Source: Cupriavidus malaysiensis
Lineage (GTDB): Bacteria > Pseudomonadota > Gammaproteobacteria > Burkholderiales > Burkholderiaceae
Direction of reading: 5' to 3'
Assembly: GCF_001854325.1 (NCBI RefSeq)
Contig: NZ_CP017755.1
Span: forward strand, 2,232,001-2,296,000
DNA: 64,000 nt
Below, piece after piece: positions 40,262-64,000 of the stretch. The notes below the pieces were generated by a model. The model saw only the letters and a program-made list of their open reading frames with translations, did no database searches and had not been told where the DNA came from. The position numbers and the translations under genes were made by a program. Each line of letters begins with the position of its first letter. The stretch's first letter is position 1.

Positions 40262-40281
40262 TACTGTATATTCATACAGTC
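40262..40281 (+). promoter_or_regulatory. LexA (SOS) box of dinB
   Basis: TACTGTATATTCATACAGTC: CTGT-N8-ACAG core with AT-rich centre, about 65 bp upstream of the dinB ATG. It is nearly identical over 19 bases to the LexA box at 61598. Confidence 0.93.
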
Positions 40282-51399: not shown

Positions 51400-54300
51400 A
51401 TGGTCATGATGAACCGGCGCCAGTTCCTGAAGGTCACTGGCGCCTCGCTAGCGGGCTCGAGCCTGGCGCTGATGGGCTTCGCGCCCGACACCGCACTGGC
51501 CGAGGTACGCGCCTACAAGCTGGCGCGCGCCACCGAGACGCGCAACACCTGCCCCTACTGCTCGGTGGCCTGCGGGCTGCTGATGTACAGCCTGGGCGAC
51601 GGCGCCAAGAACGCCAAGGCCAGCATCATCCATATCGAGGGCGACCCCGACCATCCGGTCAACCGCGGCACGCTCTGTCCCAAGGGCGCCGCCCTGATCG
51701 ACTTCGTGCACAGTCCCAGCCGCCTGGTGCAGCCCGAGTACCGCGCGCCGGGCTCGGACAAGTGGCAGCCGATCGCCTGGGACGACGCGCTGGACCGCAT
51801 CGCCCGGCTGATGAAGCAGGACCGCGACGCCAACTTCGTCGAGAAGACGGCCGACGGCCGCACCGTCAACCGCTGGCTGACCACCGGCATGCTGGCCGCC
51901 TCGGCCAGCAGCAACGAGGTCGGCTACCTGACGCACAAGGTCGTCCGCAGCTTCGGCATTCTGGGATTCGACAACCAGGCGCGTGTCTGACACGGCCCGA
52001 CGGTGGCAGGTCTTGCCCCGACGTTCGGCCGTGGAGCGATGACGAACCATTGGGTCGACATCAAGAACGCGGACGTGATCCTGATCATGGGCGGCAATGC
52101 GGCCGAGGCCCACCCTTGCGGTTTCAAGTGGGTGACCGAGGCCAAGGCGCACAACAAGGCGCGCCTGATCGTGGTCGACCCGCGCTTCACCCGTTCCGCC
52201 TCGGTGGCCGATCTCTACGTGCCGATACGCACCGGCACCGACATCGTCTTCCTTGGCGGCGTGATCCGCTACCTGCTGGCCAACGACAAGATCCAGCACG
52301 AGTACGTCAGGAACTACACCGACTTCAGCTTCATCGTGCGCGAGGACTTCTCCTTCGAACGCGGCCTGTTCTCGGGCTACGACGCCGAGAAGCGCACCTA
52401 TGACAAGGCCTCGTGGGACTACGAGAAGGGCGAGGACGGCTTCGTCAAGACCGACCCGACGCTGGGCCATCCGCGCTGCGTCTACAACCTGCTCAAGCAG
52501 CACTACGCGCGCTATACGCCGGAGATGGTGGAACGGGTCTGCGGCACGCCGCGCGACAAGTTCCAGGCCGTGTGCGACCTGCTGGCCTCCACCGCCGTGC
52601 CCACGCGCGCCATGACCATCCTGTATGCGCTGGGCTGGACGCAGCACTCGATCGGCTCGCAGATCATCCGTACCGGCGCCATGGTGCAGCTGCTGCTGGG
52701 CAATATCGGCGTCGCCGGCGGCGGCATGAACGCGCTGCGCGGCCACTCCAATATCCAGGGGCTGACCGACCTGGGCCTGATGTCCAACCTGCTGCCCGGC
52801 TACATGACACTGCCGACCGAGCAGGAGCAGGACTACGACCAGTACATCGAGGCACGCGCCTCCAAGCCGCTGCGGCCCAACCAGCTCAGCTACTGGCAGA
52901 ACTACGGCAAGTTCCACGTCAGCCTGATGAAGGCCTGGTGGGGCGACGCCGCCACCGCGGAGAACCGCTGGGCCTTCGATTACCTGCCCAAGCTCGACAA
53001 GCCCTACGACCTGCTGCAGGTCGTGGAGCTGATGAACCAGGACAAGATGACCGGCTACATCGCGCAGGGCTTTAACCCGCTGGCCGCGGCACCGAACAAG
53101 GCCAAGGTGATGCGCGGGCTGTCGCGCCTGAAGTTCCTGGTGGTGATGGATCCGCTGGCCACCGAGACCTCCGAATTCTGGCGCCACGCCGGCGAATACA
53201 ACGACGTCGACCCGGCGCAGATCCAGACCGAGGTGTTCCGCCTGCCGACCACCTGCTTCGCCGAGGAAGACGGCTCCCTGGTGAATTCCGGGCGCTGGCT
53301 GCAATGGCACTGGAAGGGCGCCGAGCCGCCCGGACTGGCGCGCACCGACATCGAGATCATGTCGGGCCTGTTCCTGCGCCTGCGCGAGCTGTACCGGAAA
53401 GACGGCGGCAAGTTCCCCGATCCCATCGTCAAGCTGTCGTGGCCCTATGCCCGGCCGGACAGCCCGACGCCCGAGGAAATCGCCAAGGAGTATTCGGGAC
53501 GCGCGCTCACCGATCTCGCCGATCCGAAGGACCCGGCCAAGATCCTGCACCGCGCCGGCGAGCAGCTGTCCGGCTTCGCCGAGCTGCGCGACGATGGCAG
53601 CACGCTGAGCGGCTGCTGGATCTTCTGCGGCGCGTGGACCCAGGCCGGCAACCAGATGGCGCGGCGCGACAATGCCGATCCCACCGGCATCGGCCAGACC
53701 CTCAACTGGGCCTGGGCCTGGCCGGCCAACCGGCGCGTGCTGTACAACCGGGCCTCCTGCGACACGGCCGGCAAGCCCTTCAATCCGGCGCGCAAGCTGA
53801 TCGGCTGGAACGGCAAGAGCTGGGGCGGCGCCGATGTGCCGGACTTCAAGATCGACGAAGACCCGGGCCAAGGCATGGGGCCCTTCATCATGCTGCCCGA
53901 AGGCGTGGCGCGCTTCTTCGCCCGCGCCAATATGGCCGAGGGCCCCTTCCCCGAGCACTACGAGCCCTTCGAGACCCCGCTCGGCTACAACCTGATGAAC
54001 GGCAAGCGCCCCGAGGCCGTCAGCAATCCGGCCGCGCGCGTCTTCCCCGGCGACTGGGCCAACTTCGGCAAGGCCGATGCCTTCCCGCACGTGGCCACCA
54101 CCTACCGGCTGACCGAGCACTTCCACTACTGGACCAAGCACGCCCGCATCAATGCGGTGCTGCAGCCCGAGCAGTTCGTCGAGATCGGCGAGGCGCTGGC
54201 CAAGGAGATCGGCATCGTCGCCGGTGACCGTGTCAAGGTCAGTTCCAAGCGCGGCTATATCAAGGCCGTGGCACTGGTGACCAAGCGCATCAAGCCGCTG

Positions 54301-56105: not shown

Positions 56106-57047
56106 ATGGCGCAGCGCATCCTGCAACCCCACGAAATCGAGTCGCTCGACCACGTCGCACTGGCCAGGCTGCGCCTGCCGCGGCACGGCGATGTCTTCTC
56201 CGCCCGCGCCGCCCGGCTGCGGCAGTTGAGCGGCGGCAATCCGATCGGCCCCTACCTCGAAGCCATGGCCGTGCTGGCGGCGGCACAGCATGAAATCGCC
56301 CAGACCCTGGCGGTTCCGGCGCCCGATCCGCGCGACATCGAACTGGCGCTGGCCCACGGCATGCCGCCGCTGACCGCGGCCGGCGGCCAGGGCCACGGCG
56401 CCTGGCGCGGCGCGCTGGCCGGCCTGCTCAGCCGGCTCGACCAGGCGCCTGCCCTGCCGCCGCCGGCACGGCAGGCGCTGGCGCGCCTCGGCACGCTGCC
56501 GGCGCGCGAGCTGGAAGACCAGGTCCAGGCCCTGCTGGCCGGACGCGACGACGGCATCGACGCCGCCCTCGCGCCCTTCCTGATGGCCGCGCTGCAGGTC
56601 AGCTGGACGCACCAGGCCGGGCAGCTGCGCGAGCAGGACGTGCCGCTGCTGGAGGTGGCCGGCGTCTGCCCGGTGTGCGGTTCGCTGCCGGTGGCCAGCA
56701 TCGTGCGCATCGGCGGCCGCTTCCAGGGCCTGCGCTACCTGCACTGCGGCCTGTGCGCCAGCGAGTGGCACATGGTGCGCGTCAAGTGCAGCCACTGCGA
56801 ATCCACCGAAGGCATCGCCTACTACACCGTCGACGGCGCCGGCGAAGCGGTCAAGGCCGAGTCCTGCGACCACTGCCACAGCTACCGCAAGATCTGCTAC
56901 ATGGAAAAGGATCCGCAGGTCGAGCCGCTGGCCGACGACCTCGCCACGCTGACCCTGGACGTGCTGATGGGCGAGGCCGGCTATGCCCGCGCCAGCGCCA
57001 ATCCGCTGCTGTGGCAGCCGGGCCGGGAGGCCGCCGATGGACGCTAG
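56106..57047 (+). CDS. fdhE: FdhE, formate dehydrogenase assembly protein
   Basis: 313 residues (309 in E. coli). Rubredoxin-like zinc or iron cysteine pairs: [28 protein letters not shown] and [11 protein letters not shown]. It binds the unassembled catalytic subunit in the cytoplasm and is needed for active Tat-exported formate dehydrogenase. Its stop lies inside the selA start region (11-bp overlap). Confidence 0.96.
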
Positions 57048-58467
57048 CGCGCCGTTGCTGGCGGGGCCGGTGGACATCCCCTCGGTCGACCGCCTGCTCA
57101 ACGCCGAACCCCTGCAACCGCTGCTGGCGCGCTACGGCCGCAGCCAGGTGACCGCCGCGCTGCGCCGGCTGCTCGACGACTACCGCGCGCGTGCCGTGGC
57201 CGGGCAGCTGCTGCGGCCGGCGCTGGAAGACGCCGCGCTGGCGCAGGCGCTGACGGCCACCCTGGACGATGCCGCGCGCCCGCGCCTGCGCGCCGTCTAC
57301 AACCTGACCGGCACGGTACTGCACACCAACCTGGGCCGCGCCCTGCTGCCGCAGGAAGCGGTGGCCGAGGTGGCACGGGCGTTGACCGCGCCGGCCAACC
57401 TGGAATTCGATCTCGACAGCGGCGGCCGCGGCGACCGCGACGACCTGGTCGAAGACCTGCTGTGCGAGCTGACCGGTGCCGAGGCGGCGACGGTGGTCAA
57501 CAACAACGCCGCCGCCGTGCTGCTGATGCTGAACACGCTGGCGCAGCGGCGCGAAGTGGTGGTGTCGCGCGGCGAACTGGTCGAGATCGGTGGCGCCTTC
57601 CGCATTCCCGACATCATGCAGCGCGCCGGCACGCGCCTGGTCGAGATCGGCACCACCAACCGCACCCATCCGCACGACTATGCCGGCGCGATCGGCGCGC
57701 GCACCGCGCTGCTGATGAAGGTGCACTGCAGCAACTACCAGATCACCGGCTTCACCCGCAGCGTGGAGGTGGACGAGGTGGTGGCGCTGGCCCGCCCGCA
57801 CGGCCTGCCGGTGGTGGTGGACCTGGGCAGCGGCACCCTGGTCGACCTGCGCCGCTGGGGCCTGCCCGGCGAGACCACGGTGCGCGAGACCATCGCCGCC
57901 GGCGCCGACCTGGTCACCTTCAGCGGCGACAAGCTGCTGGGCGGCCCGCAGGCCGGCCTGATCGTCGGCCGCGCAGACCTGATCCGCAAGATCAAGAAGA
58001 ACCCGCTCAAGCGCGCGCTGCGCGTGGGCAAGCTGACGCTGGCCGCGCTGGAGCCGGTGCTGCGGCTGTACCGCGCGCCCGAGCTGCTGGCGCAGACCTT
58101 GCCGACCCTGCGCCTGCTGACCCGTCCCGCCGCCGCGCTGCAGGCCCAGGCCCAGCGCCTGTGCCCGCTGCTGGCACCGGCGCTGGGCGCGGAGTACCGG
58201 ATCGAGGCCGCGCCGATGTTCAGCCAGATCGGCAGCGGCGCGCTGCCGCTCAGCCAGGTCCCCAGCCACGGCCTGCGCATCGCCGCCGCGGCCGGCCGGC
58301 GCGCCGGCGCGGGCAAGCCGCTGCAGCGCCTGGAAGCGGCCCTGCGCGCGCTGCCGCGCCCGGTCATCGGCCGCATCGGCGAACAGGCCCTGTGGCTGGA
58401 CCTGCGTTGCCTGGAAGAAGACGAGGAGGCCGGCTTCGTCGCCCAGTGGCAGGCCCTGCGGCCATGA
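57037..58467 (+). CDS. selA: L-seryl-tRNA(Sec) selenium transferase (SelA)
   Basis: 476 residues from ATG 57037 ([10 protein letters not shown]); the in-frame ATG at 56983 is inside fdhE and less likely. PLP enzyme: the lysine in [15 protein letters not shown] (Lys299) corresponds to K295 of E. coli. [21 protein letters not shown] and [16 protein letters not shown] are typical. It converts seryl-tRNA(Sec) to selenocysteyl-tRNA using selenophosphate. Overlaps selB by 4 bp. Confidence 0.97.
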
Positions 58468-60431
58468 TCGTCGGCACCGCCGGCCATATCGACCATGGCA
58501 AGACCACGCTGGTGCGCGCACTGACCGGCGTCGACACCGACCGCCTCAAGGAAGAGAAGGCACGCGGCATCTCCATCGAGCTGGGCTACGCCTACACGCC
58601 GCTGCCGGGCGGCGAGGTGCTCGGCTATATCGACGTGCCCGGCCACGAACGCCTGATCCATACCATGGCGGCCGGCGCCAGCGGCATCGACCTGGCCCTG
58701 CTGGTGGTGGCCGCCGACGACGGCGTGATGCCGCAGACCCGCGAGCACGTGGCCATCCTCGCATTGCTCGGCGTACGCGCGGCGGTGGTGGCGCTGAGCA
58801 AGGCGGACCGCGTCGAGCCGCCGCGGCTGGAGGCCGTGCGCGCGGAGATCTCGGCCTTGCTGGCGGACACGCCCTTCGCCGGCGCGCCGGTGTTCGCGCT
58901 GGCCGCCACCCGGGCCGGCGATGCCGGCGTGGCGGCGCTGCGCGCCCATCTGCATGCGGCCGCGCTGGCGCTGCCGCCGCGTGCCGCCGACGGCCCCTTC
59001 CGCCTGGCCGTCGACCGTGTGTTCACGCTGGCCGGCCACGGCACCGTGGTGACCGGCACGGTCTTCGGTGGCCAGGTCCGCGTCGGCGACAGCGTGCGCC
59101 TGGCGCCCTCCGGCCTGCCCGCACGCGTGCGCAGCATCCACGCCCAGCAGCAGCCGGCCGAGGCCGGCCATGCCGGGCAGCGCTGCGCCCTCAATCTCGC
59201 CGGCATCGACAAGGACGCCATCGCGCGCGGCGACTGGGTGCTCGACCCGGTCCTGCTGGCACCCACCACGCGCCTCGACGTGCGGCTGGCCCTGCTGCCC
59301 GGCAGCGGCCACCGCCTTGCGCACTGGGCCCCGCTCCACATCCACCTGGGCACCACGCACCGGCTTGCCAACATCGTGCTGCTGGAGGGCGACACCATCG
59401 AGCCCGGCGCGCAGGCCTTCGCCCAGCTCGTGTTCGCCGCCCCGCTCTGCGCCTGGCCGGGCGACCGCTTCATCGCGCGCAATCCTCAGGCCACCCGCAC
59501 CGTGGGGGGCGGCGTGGTGCTGGACCCGTTCGCGCCGGAACGCCGGCGCCGCGCGCCGCAACGGCTGGCCTACCTGCGCGCCCTGCAGCAGATGGCCGGC
59601 GGCAGCGGCCTGGCGCCGCTGCTGGCGCAGGCGCCGCGCGGCATCACGGTCGCGCGCCTGCGCTGCCTCGCCGCCGGCGCGCCCGGCGGCTGGCGCCTGC
59701 CAGCCGACGCGCTGCGCATCGGCGCGCCGACCCAGGACGAGGCCAGCCTCATCCTCGCCGAGCACTGGCAGGCCCTGCAGACGCGCGTGCTGGAAGCGCT
59801 GGCGGCCTTCCACGCGCGCCAGCCGGACGAGCCCGGCCCGGACGCTGGCACGCTACGCCGCATCGCCTTCGCCGGCACGCCGGTGCCGGACCCGCTCTGG
59901 CTCGGCCTGCTCGACGCCCTGGCCGGGCGCGGCGCCCTGCGCCGCCAGGGCGCCTGGCTGCAACTGCCCACGCACTCCGCCAGTCTGAGCGCCGCCGAAC
60001 AAGCCTTGCAGCCGCGCGTGATGCCGCTGCTGGAGGCCGGCGCCTATGATCCCCCCTGGGTACGCGACCTCGCCGCCGCGCTCCAGGTGCCGGAAGACGC
60101 GATGCGGCAACTGCTGCGCAAGCTGGCGCGCCAGGGCCAGGTGCACCAGGTCGTGCGCGACCTGTTCTATACGCACGCGCACGTCCAGGCGCTGGCCGCC
60201 CTGGTGAGCGGGCTGGTGGCACACCACGGCAGCGTCGACGCGGCACGGTTCCGCGACGCCGTCGGCCTCGGGCGCAAGCGGGCCATCCAGGTTTTGGAGT
60301 TCCTCGACCGCGTCGGTTACACTCGCCGGGTTGGCAATGCGCGCATGCTGCGCCCCGACGGCCAGTGGCAGCAGGGGCAGGCGAACGGCGCAGCGGTCCC
60401 GTCCGCAGCCGCTCACGACGAAGGGCCATGA
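58464..60431 (+). CDS. selB: Selenocysteine-specific elongation factor (SelB)
   Basis: 655 residues from ATG 58464, overlapping the selA stop (ATGA). GTPase motifs: GHIDHGKTT, the switch-I segment [14 protein letters not shown] and [10 protein letters not shown]-Tu-like domains 2 and 3 follow. The C-terminal four winged helices that bind SECIS RNA start at about residue 395; the last ends with [38 protein letters not shown], typical of WHD4. It delivers Sec-tRNA to the UGA of fdnG. Its stop codon ends at the base before tRNA-Sec. Confidence 0.97.
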
Positions 60432-60527
60432 GGAAGGCAGGCGTATCCGGTGATGCGGCCGGGCTTCAAACCCGGTTGGGGGCGTCAGCCGTTCCCAGGT
60501 AGGTTCGACTCCTACTGCTTTCCGCCA
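60432..60527 (+). tRNA. selC: tRNA-Sec (anticodon UCA)
   Basis: 96 nt. Acceptor stem of 8 bp: GGAAGGCA pairs with TGCTTTCC, then G73 and encoded CCA (60525-60527). Anticodon stem CCGGG/CCCGG, loop CTTCAAA with UCA at 60466-60468. Long variable arm, 5-bp T stem GTAGG/CCTAC with TTCGACT loop. The 8+5 geometry is that of bacterial tRNA-Sec. It begins at the base after the selB stop, so it may be processed from the selB transcript. Confidence 0.97.
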
Positions 60528-61033
60528 CAAGATTTCCGGCGCTCTGGTGGAGACCGAAGGGAGCGAGGAACGGGGGTGGCCTGTGGTTTTCTGCCATGCC
60601 CGCTCGAGTGCCCGCTCGAGTGCTCATCGTTGGCGCTCCTCGTTCGCGCTCCTCGTTGCATGCCGCGCGCCTGCGCCCTTGCAGCTTCATGGCATCGCCG
60701 GAGTGCCCCTGTGCCGCCAACTCACAGTGGTTGTTCGGCATCCGTCCCACTGAGATCCCACCGAGGCGCCACGCCGTCGCCGGAAGACGCCCTCACGACC
60801 AGACTCGCCATCCGATCACCGGTTCACCTTGGCGTTCTTCTCCGTGCCGCCCAAGCAGCGCAGCCGCAGTGCCCAGTCATGACAAGCAAGGGAAGGCACC
60901 GCTTTTCCCACCCCGCTCTTTAGAGGGATTGGATGCCAGGCCAGGGCTCGTTCACCATGGGCTGGTGACCGCCGCCCTGCCTTCGGCGAGCGGCATCGAC
61001 TTCTTCGCACTCTTGGGATAAGGAAGCCGCGCC
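60528..61033. other. 506-bp stretch after selC, left part of an island
   Basis: No convincing gene. Contains short tandem repeats gcccgctcgagt (about 60599-60624) and cgctcctcgtt (about 60635-60657). Composition is less GC-rich than the flanks. Confidence 0.55.
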
Positions 61034-61333
61034 ATGCCTGTCATCACTCGGAGCGACCTGCAATACGAATACAGTTGGACGCCTGTGAATGGCGACAACC
61101 CCAAGCTGACCGGGAAACCGGATGACGTGCTTTTGAATCGCAAGGAGGGGTACGAGGTGCTGGCCTTTCTGGTCCACTTCTGCCGGAGCTGGAACGATGC
61201 CGATGGCAAGCCATTGACCCGGGCCCATGCGCTCAAGGCCGAACGCCTGATCCACCTGCATTTGCCGAGTGACGTCCGCTCGAGAATGGATGTGTCCGAA
61301 TGGCTCGCTGACAACTGGGAGAGCTACACCTGA
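61034..61333 (+). CDS. Small orphan protein in the selC island
   Basis: 99 residues from ATG 61034 with AAGGAAGCC upstream. Soluble, mixed alpha/beta: MPVITRSDLQYEYSW, GYEVLAFLVHFCRSWND, LTRAHALKAERLIHLHLPSD. No known motif. The codon mix and amino-acid composition look genuinely coding, unlike the frames around it. Unrecognised; plausible remnant cargo of the inserted element. Confidence 0.6.
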   Translation: MPVITRSDLQYEYSWTPVNGDNPKLTGKPDDVLLNRKEGYEVLAFLVHFCRSWNDADGKPLTRAHALKAERLIHLHLPSDVRSRMDVSEWLADNWESYT

Positions 61334-61426
61334 TGCGTGGGTAAGGGCGCTTTCGTTGAAATCTGTTCCGGAGCGACACAAGCACGCCGACCCGGTCGGC
61401 AAGCAGGGCGACCGGGTGGTCGGCCG

Positions 61427-61470
61427 CATGTCGGCGCATGTCGGCGCATGTCGGCGCATGTCGCATGCAG
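61427..61470. repeat. Tandem 10-bp repeat (catgtcggcg)
   Basis: Four near-exact copies starting near 61427, in non-coding DNA upstream of the SOS-controlled gene. Confidence 0.75.
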
Positions 61471-61597
61471 CAGTCCGGAACGGCAATGCCATGACCGGAT
61501 CGGCTGGCAGCAGCCTGCCGATCGGTGGGTGACGTCATCTGCGCGTGGCATTGCAGCCGACGGCCAGCGCTGGACCAGAGCAGCGGCCACCGCGCTA

Positions 61598-61617
61598 TAC
61601 TGTATATTCATACAGTA
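61598..61617 (+). promoter_or_regulatory. Near-consensus LexA (SOS) box
   Basis: TACTGTATATTCATACAGTA, CTGT-N8-ACAG, 20 bp, only a slightly imperfect palindrome. It ends 18 bp before the ATG of the 105-residue protein and is almost identical to the dinB site at 40262. A site so close to the start codon should shut transcription tightly. Confidence 0.93.
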
Positions 61618-61635
61618 CACAGCAAGTGGCGCATC

Positions 61636-61953
61636 ATGGGCAACCCGAAACTCCGCATCGCCAACGACGATCCCTGCGACACGTACGTCCCCGCTACCCA
61701 CCCCGCAAACGGCATCCTGGCGCGCGTCCCGAGCGACTTCGTCCACGTGGCAAGACAGACGCTCGGCCCCGCCGCTGCTGACGGACTCGCGCATGCCGAG
61801 GTGGTGATCGACGCCGGCGAGGCCGGCACCGTCCGGATCTTCTTCGAGCGGAAGCTGGCCCGCCATCACAAGAGCTACTACCACTACTGGATCGCCTATC
61901 GCGCCGAACCGGTCACGCCCGACACGGCGAACGCCGATGCCGACCACGCGTAG
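61636..61953 (+). CDS. SOS-regulated 105-residue protein of unknown function
   Basis: 105 residues from ATG 61636; the frame is open further upstream but that part crosses the LexA box. The start reads MGNPKLRIANDDPCDTYVPATHPANGILARV. Mid-protein has VVIDAGEAGTVRIFFERKLARHHKSYYHYWIAYRAEPVT, suggesting a small alpha/beta fold with an aromatic/basic face. No membrane segment or signal. No family recognised. The near-perfect LexA box makes it DNA-damage-inducible, and a terminator follows at 62156, so it is a one-gene SOS unit inside the selC island. Candidates are a cell-division inhibitor, repair factor or element-borne effector. Confidence 0.75.
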   Translation: MGNPKLRIANDDPCDTYVPATHPANGILARVPSDFVHVARQTLGPAAADGLAHAEVVIDAGEAGTVRIFFERKLARHHKSYYHYWIAYRAEPVTPDTANADADHA

Positions 61954-62155
61954 CGACCATTCCCGCAGCGTTCCGCCGGCGCTGACCGAGGCAGCGCTAC
62001 GCGCGCCCTGCCGGCCTGCCCCGGAGCTAAGCCGACGGCCGGCATCGCTGCCGCTTTACCCCACCTTCGTATGCACCAGACTTGTGCAGGGTAACAAGTT
62101 TGATACAAACACCGAAAATGTCACGCAGCAGCGTTTTCATGCTGCCACTCCCGGT

Positions 62156-62191
62156 GGGCAAAGGTGCTCCCGCGCCTTTGCCCCGCTTTTT
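62156..62191 (+). terminator. Rho-independent terminator after the SOS gene
   Basis: A 9-bp perfect stem GGGCAAAGG/CCTTTGCCC (62156-62164, 62175-62183) is followed by cgcTTTTT. Confidence 0.85.
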
Positions 62192-62360
62192 CCATCGGTC
62201 ACCGGCCAGCACCCGGGCCGAAGCTGGCCTGCAGCGCGGCGGCACACAGCCCAGCCGCCTGCCCCGGTTCATCGAGCAGCGGCCGACAGGGAGTGCCCGG
62301 TGCACGGGAAATCGCGCACCACGGCCGCCGCGCCGGACATGAGCGGTCCACTCCGCCTCC

Positions 62361-62391
62361 AATAATGAAAAACGCCCGCTCGCGGCGGGCG
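62361..62391 (-). terminator. Rho-independent terminator of the 85-residue gene
   Basis: On the minus strand, stem CGCCCGC/GCGGGCG with 5-base loop, followed by TTTTTCATTATT. Begins about 40 bp after the stop at 62432. Confidence 0.85.
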
Positions 62392-62431
62392 AGCCGCCAG
62401 GACGGCGGCAAGAAATCCTCGGTTCTGACGG

Positions 62432-62689
62432 CTACGCTGCTATCGACACGTCATGCACGATGTGGGTGCTGACCAGGATGCGAAGCGCGTCGACGTCCAA
62501 TTCGTGCGACTGGATCGGCAGGCGGAAAAGGCGCAACCTGGGAAAGATCGTGGTCGCCATTTCCGTGCACCGGCCGAGTGACTCAAATCGACCGAAATCC
62601 CACAAGGCGGCACCGCAGACTTGCACCAGGCGATTCCCGCCGGACGTCAGTGGATATGTTGCAATGAATCGATCAAATGACTGCCTCAT
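62432..62689 (-). CDS. Small orphan protein of the selC island
   Basis: 85 residues from ATG 62689, with a strong AGGAGAGG ribosome-binding site and a good terminator behind it. MRQSFDRFIATYPLTSGGNR, VCGAALWDFGRFESL, FRLPIQSHELDVDALRILV. Soluble, no membrane segment. Composition is lower in GC than the surroundings. Family not recognised; the complete expression signals argue that it is real. Confidence 0.7.
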   Translation of the reverse strand: MRQSFDRFIATYPLTSGGNRLVQVCGAALWDFGRFESLGRCTEMATTIFPRLRLFRLPIQSHELDVDALRILVSTHIVHDVSIAA

Positions 62690-62928
62690 CTACCTCTCCT
62701 GCTACTCCAACCTCGGAGCGCCCCCCGGTCTTTCAATTCCCTTTCCTCTTTCCTCTTTCAATTTCCATTCATTCAGGATAGTTGACGGATTCCGTCCAGC
62801 CATGGAGCCTTACCTCCTGTTGCTCTCCTGCCTTGCATTTGCAGAAGTTGCTGCGTATCCATTTCCGCCTATCGTTCATCGACGGCGTCTCGACACGCGG
62901 CGTGAATCCGGGCTCGCCGGGAGCAGGC

Positions 62929-63141
62929 TCACGCTGAGGAAATCAAGGCATCGACATGTCTCTGGGCCCAGGACAGGCCGCCCGACTGAGCATCGCTGCA
63001 CTGCGCGAAGCTACCGAACGCTTCGGACTCGGCAATCACATGGTCGCCGAGCCGTACCCGTCCGAGGGCCGCGAACCTGCCGGCCCCGGAGGGTTTTGCA
63101 AAGCCTTCGACGATGTAGTTGTGGTACCACTGAATGGACAT
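62929..63141 (-). CDS. Small orphan protein of the selC island
   Basis: 70 residues from ATG 63141 (CGGAG 8-12 bases upstream; ATG 63147 is an alternative). MSIQWYHNYIVEGFAK, GRFAALGRVRLGDHVIAESEAFGSF, LSWAQRHVDALI. Looks like a single small domain with strands VRLGDHVIAES. Same strand and style as the 85-residue gene, 239 bp upstream of it in transcription order. Function unknown. Confidence 0.6.
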   Translation of the reverse strand: MSIQWYHNYIVEGFAKPSGAGRFAALGRVRLGDHVIAESEAFGSFAQCSDAQSGGLSWAQRHVDALISSA

Positions 63142-63505
63142 GCGCATAGCTCCGGCTATTTCTATCCCAAGGCCCGCAATCTCAGACATGGTCTGGCGAA
63201 GACTACTACAGCGCAGCCTGAAAGGTTCCGATATGCCCCCTACTTTCCGGGGAGGCCCGCATGGAATCCGTGCGCATGTGCCAAAGCGATGGGAAGGGTG
63301 GAATCCCGGGTTTCGACAATGCGCGACACATTGACGAAGGCGGGCGGACAATGCCGGCAATCAAAGGAAAGTGTGCCCAGCGAGAACTGCGCGCGCCGAT
63401 ACGGGTGGCCTGTCACCGTTTGCCGATCCTGCGTTGCCCCTCTCCGATCCCCCCGTGTCTTCGTTGATGTCGGGCCATCGCACTGTGATAATGTTCGGGC
63501 AACCT
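63142..63505. other. 364-bp right end of the selC island
   Basis: No convincing gene on either strand; frames cross it without starts. No integrase-like sequence is seen. The selC 3' repeat begins at 63506. Confidence 0.5.
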
Positions 63506-63572
63506 GGGCTTCAAACCCGGTCGGGGACGCCAGCCGTTCCCAGGCAGGTTCGACGCCCACTGCTTTCCGCCA
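63506..63572 (+). repeat. 67-nt 3' fragment of tRNA-Sec (candidate attachment-site repeat)
   Basis: Same length as selC from the anticodon stem to CCA (60461-60527), with 61 of 67 bases identical. The 5' half (acceptor and D arm) is absent upstream. Two of the five T-stem pairs are broken (GCAGG versus CCCAC), so it is not functional. Its position, direct orientation and extent fit the attR left when an element integrates into the 3' half of a tRNA gene. Confidence 0.85.
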
Positions 63573-63606
63573 GTGAGCCGACGGCGATACCAGAAAGGAA
63601 GCCCCG

Positions 63607-64000
63607 ATGCGCCTTGAGCCCCAATCCGAACGCACCGGCAGCCAGCGCCGCGCCATCGTCCGGCACCAGGGCGATGCCTTTACCGCGGGCGCCGATGACG
63701 TCAGCGAGGAATTTCCGGTCGCCCTGGTCTTCAACGGCATCTCCCACGCGGTCATGATGGCCACGCCGCGCGATCTGGAGGCTTTCGGCACCGGCTTCGC
63801 GCTCACCGAGGGCCTGGTCGCGCGGGTCGGCGACATCCATGACATCGAAGTGCTGCTGCACGCGGACAGCGCCGAGGTGCAGCTCACCATCGCCCAGCAG
63901 GCCTTCCTGGCCTTGAAAGACCGGCGCCGCACACTGGCCGGACGCACCGGCTGCGGATTGTGCGGCATCGAAAGCCTGCAGATGCTGGATCTGCTGCCGG
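63607..64000 (+). CDS. fdhD: FdhD, sulfur carrier/sulfurtransferase for formate dehydrogenase, 3' end outside window
   Basis: 131 residues visible from ATG 63607 (MRLEPQSERTG), cut by the right edge. Core features: EEFPVALVFNGISHAVMMATPRDLEAFGTGFALTEGLV near the N-terminus and GRTGCGLCGIESL, which has the C-x2-C motif that carries persulfide sulfur from IscS to the molybdenum cofactor. Essential for an active catalytic subunit. In the ancestral order it probably directly followed selC; the island now separates them by about 3 kb. Confidence 0.95.
   Translation, partial: MRLEPQSERTGSQRRAIVRHQGDAFTAGADDVSEEFPVALVFNGISHAVMMATPRDLEAFGTGFALTEGLVARVGDIHDIEVLLHADSAEVQLTIAQQAFLALKDRRRTLAGRTGCGLCGIESLQMLDLLP

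Follow-up and report, generated by a model that had tools for sequence, protein, structure and literature searches.

The selC-fdhD locus

We analysed a stretch of 64,000 nucleotides (nt) from Cupriavidus malaysiensis (assembly GCF_001854325.1, contig NZ_CP017755.1, positions 2,232,001 to 2,296,000 of the forward strand), called the window throughout, and in it an interval of 2,978 bp between selC, the intact gene of the selenocysteine transfer RNA (tRNA-Sec), and fdhD (Table 1). The interval ends in a second, partial copy of selC, a direct repeat that agrees with nt 30-96 of the tRNA gene at 61 of 67 positions, and its GC content is 62.8% vs 71.4% for the window. A first-pass annotation, made by a model from the letters alone, had read this arrangement as an old genomic island inserted into the 3' end of selC and interrupting the selAB-selC-fdhD block; the intact gene with its 67-nt repeat, the less GC-rich DNA between them and the interruption itself, with selA and selB preceding selC and fdhD beginning at 63607, were all confirmed. 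The interval is probably the scar of a temperate prophage that entered selC.

The similarity between the partial copy and selC does not extend beyond the repeat (9/30 on the upstream flank, 17/73 on the downstream flank). On either strand of the 64-kb window, no other ungapped placement of selC nt 30-96 scores above 37/67, and the intact gene and the fragment are the only selC-like places in the whole genome at an expectation value (E) of 0.001 or below. Of the six changes in the fragment, two, at sites 46 and 79, have no counterpart in any of 43 distinct selC alleles. The 14 other selC genes of the genus lack the changes at 46, 69, 79 and 82, and show those at 51 and 54 once and nine times, respectively. 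T-stem pairs 69-83 and 70-82 are broken and the acceptor strand is unaltered; together, the changes and the broken pairs fit a loss of constraint. The allele comparison did not distinguish a phage-derived from a host-derived half within today's selC.

An empty site in the genus

Among the 60 genomes of the genus that were searched for selC, 15 carry the gene, and a second partial copy is present solely in the window's own genome. In one relative, G006, the match to fdhD starts 97 bp after selC. This genome and the window align at 78-79% DNA identity over about 4 kb upstream, selC included, over fdhD and over 1 kb past it, the two fdhD genes being 77% identical, and the interval has no counterpart there. 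Since fdhD directly follows selC in G006 and both flanks are syntenic, the 2,978 bp represent an insertion, and the comparison of selC-fdhD spacing that had been suggested with the first reading comes out in its favour. The interval is also unmatched in the selC loci of the 14 other genus genomes. Neither a second tRNA fragment in relatives without the interval nor conservation of the interval as core sequence, both named beforehand as observations that would speak against insertion, was seen.

The locus thus combines an intact tRNA gene at one end, a direct copy of the 3' part of that gene at the opposite end and a relative with an empty site. An intact integrase gene, the further hallmark of tRNA-targeted insertion, was not found inside the interval, which holds a remnant only, and we therefore file it as a scar and not as a complete element.

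Related elements at selC in Burkholderiaceae and viral contigs

A selC match was found in 152 of 299 family genomes, and 20 genomes, 18 of them with at least two selC matches, were searched again with selC nt 30-96. A second copy follows selC on its own strand and contig at a distance of 2.3-4.9 kb in G205, G088, G211, G093 and G117 and of 45-57 kb in G148, G316 and G266, and G281 and G306 hold full or nearly full tandem copies; the second match of the other re-searched genomes was weak, distant, located on a different contig or missing. In G148, G316, G266 and G284 the far copy starts at selC nt 29 or 30, the same boundary as in the window. As judged by PF00589, an integrase adjoins selC in G148, G316, G266, G088 and G221 and is broken in G117, and none was found beside selC in G205, G211, G093 and G281. 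In G093 (L134), G205 (L131) and G211 (L133), 2.3-4.9 kb separate selC from a partial copy and no integrase adjoins selC; the partial copies extend over nt 30-81, 24-96 and 47-96, respectively, and an arm site, as described below, is present only in G093 (18/18).

The integrases of G148, G316 and G266 share 70-77% identity and end 93-101 bp behind selC, pointing toward it. Matches to the integrase at 1e-20 occur in 15 of the 249 family genomes searched; a comparison with phage records returned six, at 28-41% identity and none of them close. In G284 an integrase 82% identical to that of G148 lies at the opposite end of its element, in the order integrase, 128 bp, copy of selC 29-96 and host DNA. 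Integrases of one clade are thus found on opposite sides of the selC core, in loci L138, L140 and L142 (G148, G316, G266) vs L145 (G284), L251 and L252. In G284 one and the same arm-site variant occurs at selC and at its copy, which suggests that the two loci are the ends of a single element, even though they are on different contigs.

A scan of viral contigs with 86 residues of the G284 integrase yielded 32 loci; a selC-like stretch is present in three of these (L251, L252 and L253) and was not seen in the other 29. In L251 and L252 an integrase is followed by an arm site at -124, selC 30-96 and an arm site at +53, which make up a complete phage attachment site (attP), and in L253 the integrase stands next to a nearly full selC. 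Matches to an exonuclease, a single-strand binding protein, an integrase and an endolysin identify L251 as a phage. The integrase of a further locus, L250, is identical to that of G284, and the two are probably not independent.

The arm-type site behind selC

In these elements the arms carry the 18-bp sequence GGTGTGGGTTTTTCTGCC in like orientation on both sides of the core. Of 41 selC loci examined, nine have it at 17-18/18 at +53/54 behind selC and one (G237) at 14/18 at +54, while in the remaining 31 the best scores are 12/18 forward and 13/18 in reverse; at the far selC copies, a site of 17-18/18 stands at -122 to -124 in all four cases examined. The window has a candidate site of 14/18, apparently degraded, at +51, equal in score to that of G237 and on the same side, on the same strand and at nearly the same offset as in the ten relatives. 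Such a score is rare: among the 127,966 positions of the window just one more, at 56672, attains 14/18, and none does among 285,980 taken from other loci of the genome.

Across 398 family genomes, the arm pattern occurs 16 times, in 12 genomes, and a backward control was unmatched. By comparison of coordinates, 11 of the 16 sites lie at selC or a selC copy; the site in G136 directly follows an integrase relative, and the others are in G342, G271, G275 and G224. The pattern is also contained in 15 viral contigs, in 9 of which an integrase is visible in the stretches examined.

A probable integrase remnant

The statement of the first-pass annotation that no integrase is visible needs to be qualified. 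The interval has 52 stop-to-stop frames of at least 40 aa; none of the five open reading frames (ORFs) searched against Pfam, nor of the three searched against NCBIfam, gave a match above a cut-off, and PF00589 fails as well. A short decayed piece related to the selC-associated clade is nevertheless present near the right end. The frame 63222-63464 matches the G148 integrase with 45% identity over 42 residues (4e-7), whereas the lowest values obtained from 60 block shuffles and from 21 tiles covering the window up to 62538 were 0.004 and 0.075, respectively. Identity rises to 55% over 40 residues with the integrases of G284, L250, L251 and L252, and a profile of 13 integrases matches the stretch at 3e-4 in a six-frame search. 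The remnant agrees in side and strand with G284 and the viral attP of L251 and L252. The matching stretch ends 96 nt from the core in the window and 512 nt from it in G284, so that about 400 nt, including the catalytic part and the right arm site, are apparently missing. A short integrase remnant and one degraded arm site survive, and prophage scar is a better name for the element than genomic island.

Table 1. Features of the selC-fdhD region, with positions counted from the first letter of the window
Feature	Position	Strand	Remarks
selA	56983..58467	+	494-aa ORF aligned to the sel loci of relatives; named from sequence and setting
selB	58464..60431	+	655-aa translation; relatives upstream of selC in 14 other genus loci
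selC, tRNA-Sec, intact	60432..60527	+	ARAGORN; Rfam tRNA-Sec, 78.4 bits
Left attachment site (attL) core, selC nt 30-96	60461-60527	+	within intact selC
Degraded arm-type site	60578..60595	+	14/18 to GGTGTGGGTTTTTCTGCC; +51 after selC
99-aa ORF, phage or plasmid accessory gene	61034..61333	+	phrog_33929 at 1.3e-15; 34 homologues
LexA-box-like palindrome CTGTATATTCATACAG	61600..61615		16 nt
105-aa ORF behind the palindrome	61636..61953	+	4 homologues found
Segment colinear with own-genome L197	62053..62398		blastn 62054-62190 at 2.7e-17 and 62293-62341 at 1e-3; local alignment
85-aa ORF	62432..62689	-	74% identical DNA copy at own-genome C2:2435222
Decayed integrase remnant, 40 residues	63291..63410	+	55% identity with the integrases of G284, L250, L251 and L252
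Promoter-like site TTGATG-17-GATAAT	63464..63492	+	hypothetical; reads toward fragment and fdhD
Right attachment site (attR), decayed displaced 3' part of selC	63506..63572	+	61/67 identical to selC nt 30-96
fdhD	63607..64000, continuing past the window end	+	Pfam FdhD-NarQ, 4e-18

The interior of the interval

Pieces of the interval have relatives elsewhere in 32 of the 60 genus genomes, the window's own included, chiefly the region of the 105-aa ORF and about 25 nt around the LexA-box-like palindrome, and in many of these genomes just those 25 nt match. A blastn comparison of the interval with plasmid records gave no match. The 105-aa ORF and its palindrome have copies of 79-80% DNA identity at two further loci of the genome, L197 and L198, which hold CTGTATATCCATACAG at the corresponding position and lie near ORFs of phage families, an HNH endonuclease and a tail fibre at L197 and an endolysin at L198. 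L197, with which a further segment of the interval is colinear (a terminator-like hairpin at 62156-62183 included), has an HNH-type gene in common with the phage L251 (50%) and another gene in common with the selC side of G284 (69%). The protein of the latter, an adjacent late gene of L197, is unmatched in the interval (E 5.9). Phage records contain no match to the 105-aa ORF, of which a homologue, 72% identical, is found in Cupriavidus sp. USMAA2-4.

The 99-aa ORF belongs to phrog_33929, a phage family without assigned function. An identical protein is recorded on 13 contigs, and to judge from this the scar may be common to several genomes. Relatives of this ORF at 40-47% identity were also observed in 10 plasmid records, among them the megaplasmid of Cupriavidus necator H16 and small plasmids of Escherichia and Salmonella.

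As side observations, the ORF family with the LexA-box-like palindrome recurs in the own genome (L197, L198, L201) and in other Cupriavidus, and an identical 16-nt palindrome is located in the window at 40264-40279, ahead of another ORF that we take to resemble DNA polymerase IV. The window further contains a SECIS_3 element at 51985-52043 (Rfam, 85.8 bits), consistent with the use of selenocysteine.

Origin of the interval

The prophage origin that we favour rests on the insertion relative to G006, the core boundary, the arm site, the integrase remnant and the likeness of interior pieces to loci near phage genes, and we infer that the phage belonged to the integrase clade described above. Its attP would have consisted of two arm sites flanking a core identical in extent to selC nt 30-96, and its tyrosine integrase would have recombined this core with the selC of the host. 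The phage copy would then have completed the tRNA gene at attL, giving the present intact selC, and the host's own 3' part would have been pushed to the far end, ahead of fdhD, as attR. Later deletions would have removed the phage core and most of the integrase, including the catalytic part, together with the right arm site, and the displaced tRNA piece would have drifted afterwards. The interior pieces would all have arrived with one phage. After such losses, the scar could hardly leave.

A scan of 60400-63700 found one promoter-like site, near the right end of the interval, where 0.4 would be expected from shuffles. If used, it could restore the expression of fdhD, which was cut off from selC and would now be read from this site.

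Several observations weigh against a prophage origin. G006, the sole empty site found, is flagged as 8% contaminated and is split into 730 contigs, although the contig in question is syntenic on both sides; in the other 13 selC-bearing genus genomes fdhD was not found in the selC stretches examined, and those loci are therefore no test of the site. The arm site in the window is just 14/18 and 2-3 nt off, and no right arm site was found before the fragment (best 9/18), for which reason we infer an origin from the group with 18-bp arms and do not claim membership as a complete element. The integrase remnant is short, and a whole-genome search with PF00589 gave no match in the interval and 13 elsewhere. 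In three of the four elements with well-defined ends (G148, G316 and G266) the integrase lies on the other side of the core, and only G284 and the viral attP match the side seen in the window. Finally, the likeness of the interior is to other loci of the own genome.

Another source of the scar could be an island with a P4-type integrase. A P4-like integrase starts 150 bp after selC in two genera, represented by the genus member G004 and by G221 (locus L164), with 71% identity between the two genomes, and enterobacterial islands have the same arrangement. In G004 (locus L098) it is a tyrosine integrase of 410 aa, on a contig that ends 2.4 kb after selC, and with it the earlier suggestion to look for an integrase-bearing element at this site also turned out in favour of the first reading. 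The interval, however, holds no match to a P4-type integrase beside selC: the G004 integrase alone finds nothing at E <= 1, and a looser search gave only matches of 2.1 or worse for G004 and 0.87 or worse for G221. Moreover, neither genome has the 18-bp arm site behind selC (10/18, against 14/18 in the window), and the G004 integrase carries Arm-DNA-bind_3, whereas the clade integrase is recognized in Pfam by PF00589 only. We regard a P4-type origin as unlikely.

A tandem duplication of selC in which no mobile element took part, and whose second copy was later truncated at the 5' end and degenerated, has a precedent in G281 (L136) and G306 (L137), where two full or near-full selC copies stand in tandem 923 bp apart. 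In the window, however, the flanks are unrepeated, the copy breaks off at nt 29/30 like those of the elements that carry an integrase, an arm site and an integrase remnant are present, and the interval is missing from G006, all of which makes duplication very improbable. It is equally hard to believe that the fragment is a retained RNA element such as an fdhD leader: it stands 34 nt ahead of fdhD, behind the sole promoter-like site of the scanned region, and on its own is more stably folded than most shuffled versions (z -2.25, 6 of 200), but two T-stem pairs are broken and the longer stretch 63490-63620 folds no better than its shuffles (z -0.33, 73 of 200).

The probable prophage scar represents an ordinary type of event and is a well-supported example of it. 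The attachment core, one arm site and a short piece of protein were enough to trace a 3-kb relic to a probable phage group, although no integrase gene can be recognised in it. The 18-bp arm site offers a simple marker for locating further such elements. More speculatively, the scar might stem from an undescribed group of temperate phages that are specific for selC in Burkholderiaceae, defined by one integrase clade, a 67-nt selC core and paired 18-bp arms, which repeatedly left small scars after selC, here with a promoter that drives fdhD and a retained SOS-controlled cargo gene; we put this forward as a tentative and, taken as a whole, rather doubtful proposal.

Comparison with known systems

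The well-known islands at selC of enterobacteria and the retronphage phiR73 use the same target gene, the tRNA being restored by the incoming element, and the enterobacterial islands carry P4-type integrases, in contrast to the PF00589-only clade behind the remnant. The integrase remnant agrees with the earlier suggestion that the betaproteobacterial case arose independently of this type, yet a P4-like integrase is found at selC within the genus too (G004). Burkholderiaceae selC is a recurrent target for at least two kinds of integrase.

The case is also not isolated among betaproteobacteria, since there are several in Burkholderiaceae and the phage PhiE067 has been published as integrated in selC of Burkholderia thailandensis (PMC7266877). 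PhiE067 is likewise a temperate betaproteobacterial phage at the 3' end of selC with its integrase beside the gene, and differs in its reported attachment site of 19 bp (PMC7266877). In our searches of an open-licence library, that report alone bore on a betaproteobacterial phage in selC, and none described the group with 18-bp arms.

The closest counterparts are the elements of G148, G316, G266 and G284 and the viral loci L251 and L252. Unlike the window, where a degraded left site and a 40-residue remnant survive, they possess an intact integrase and both arm sites. They share with it the core boundary at nt 29/30 and, probably, the arm site behind selC and a related integrase; G284, L251 and L252 additionally have the integrase on the side where the remnant lies in the window.

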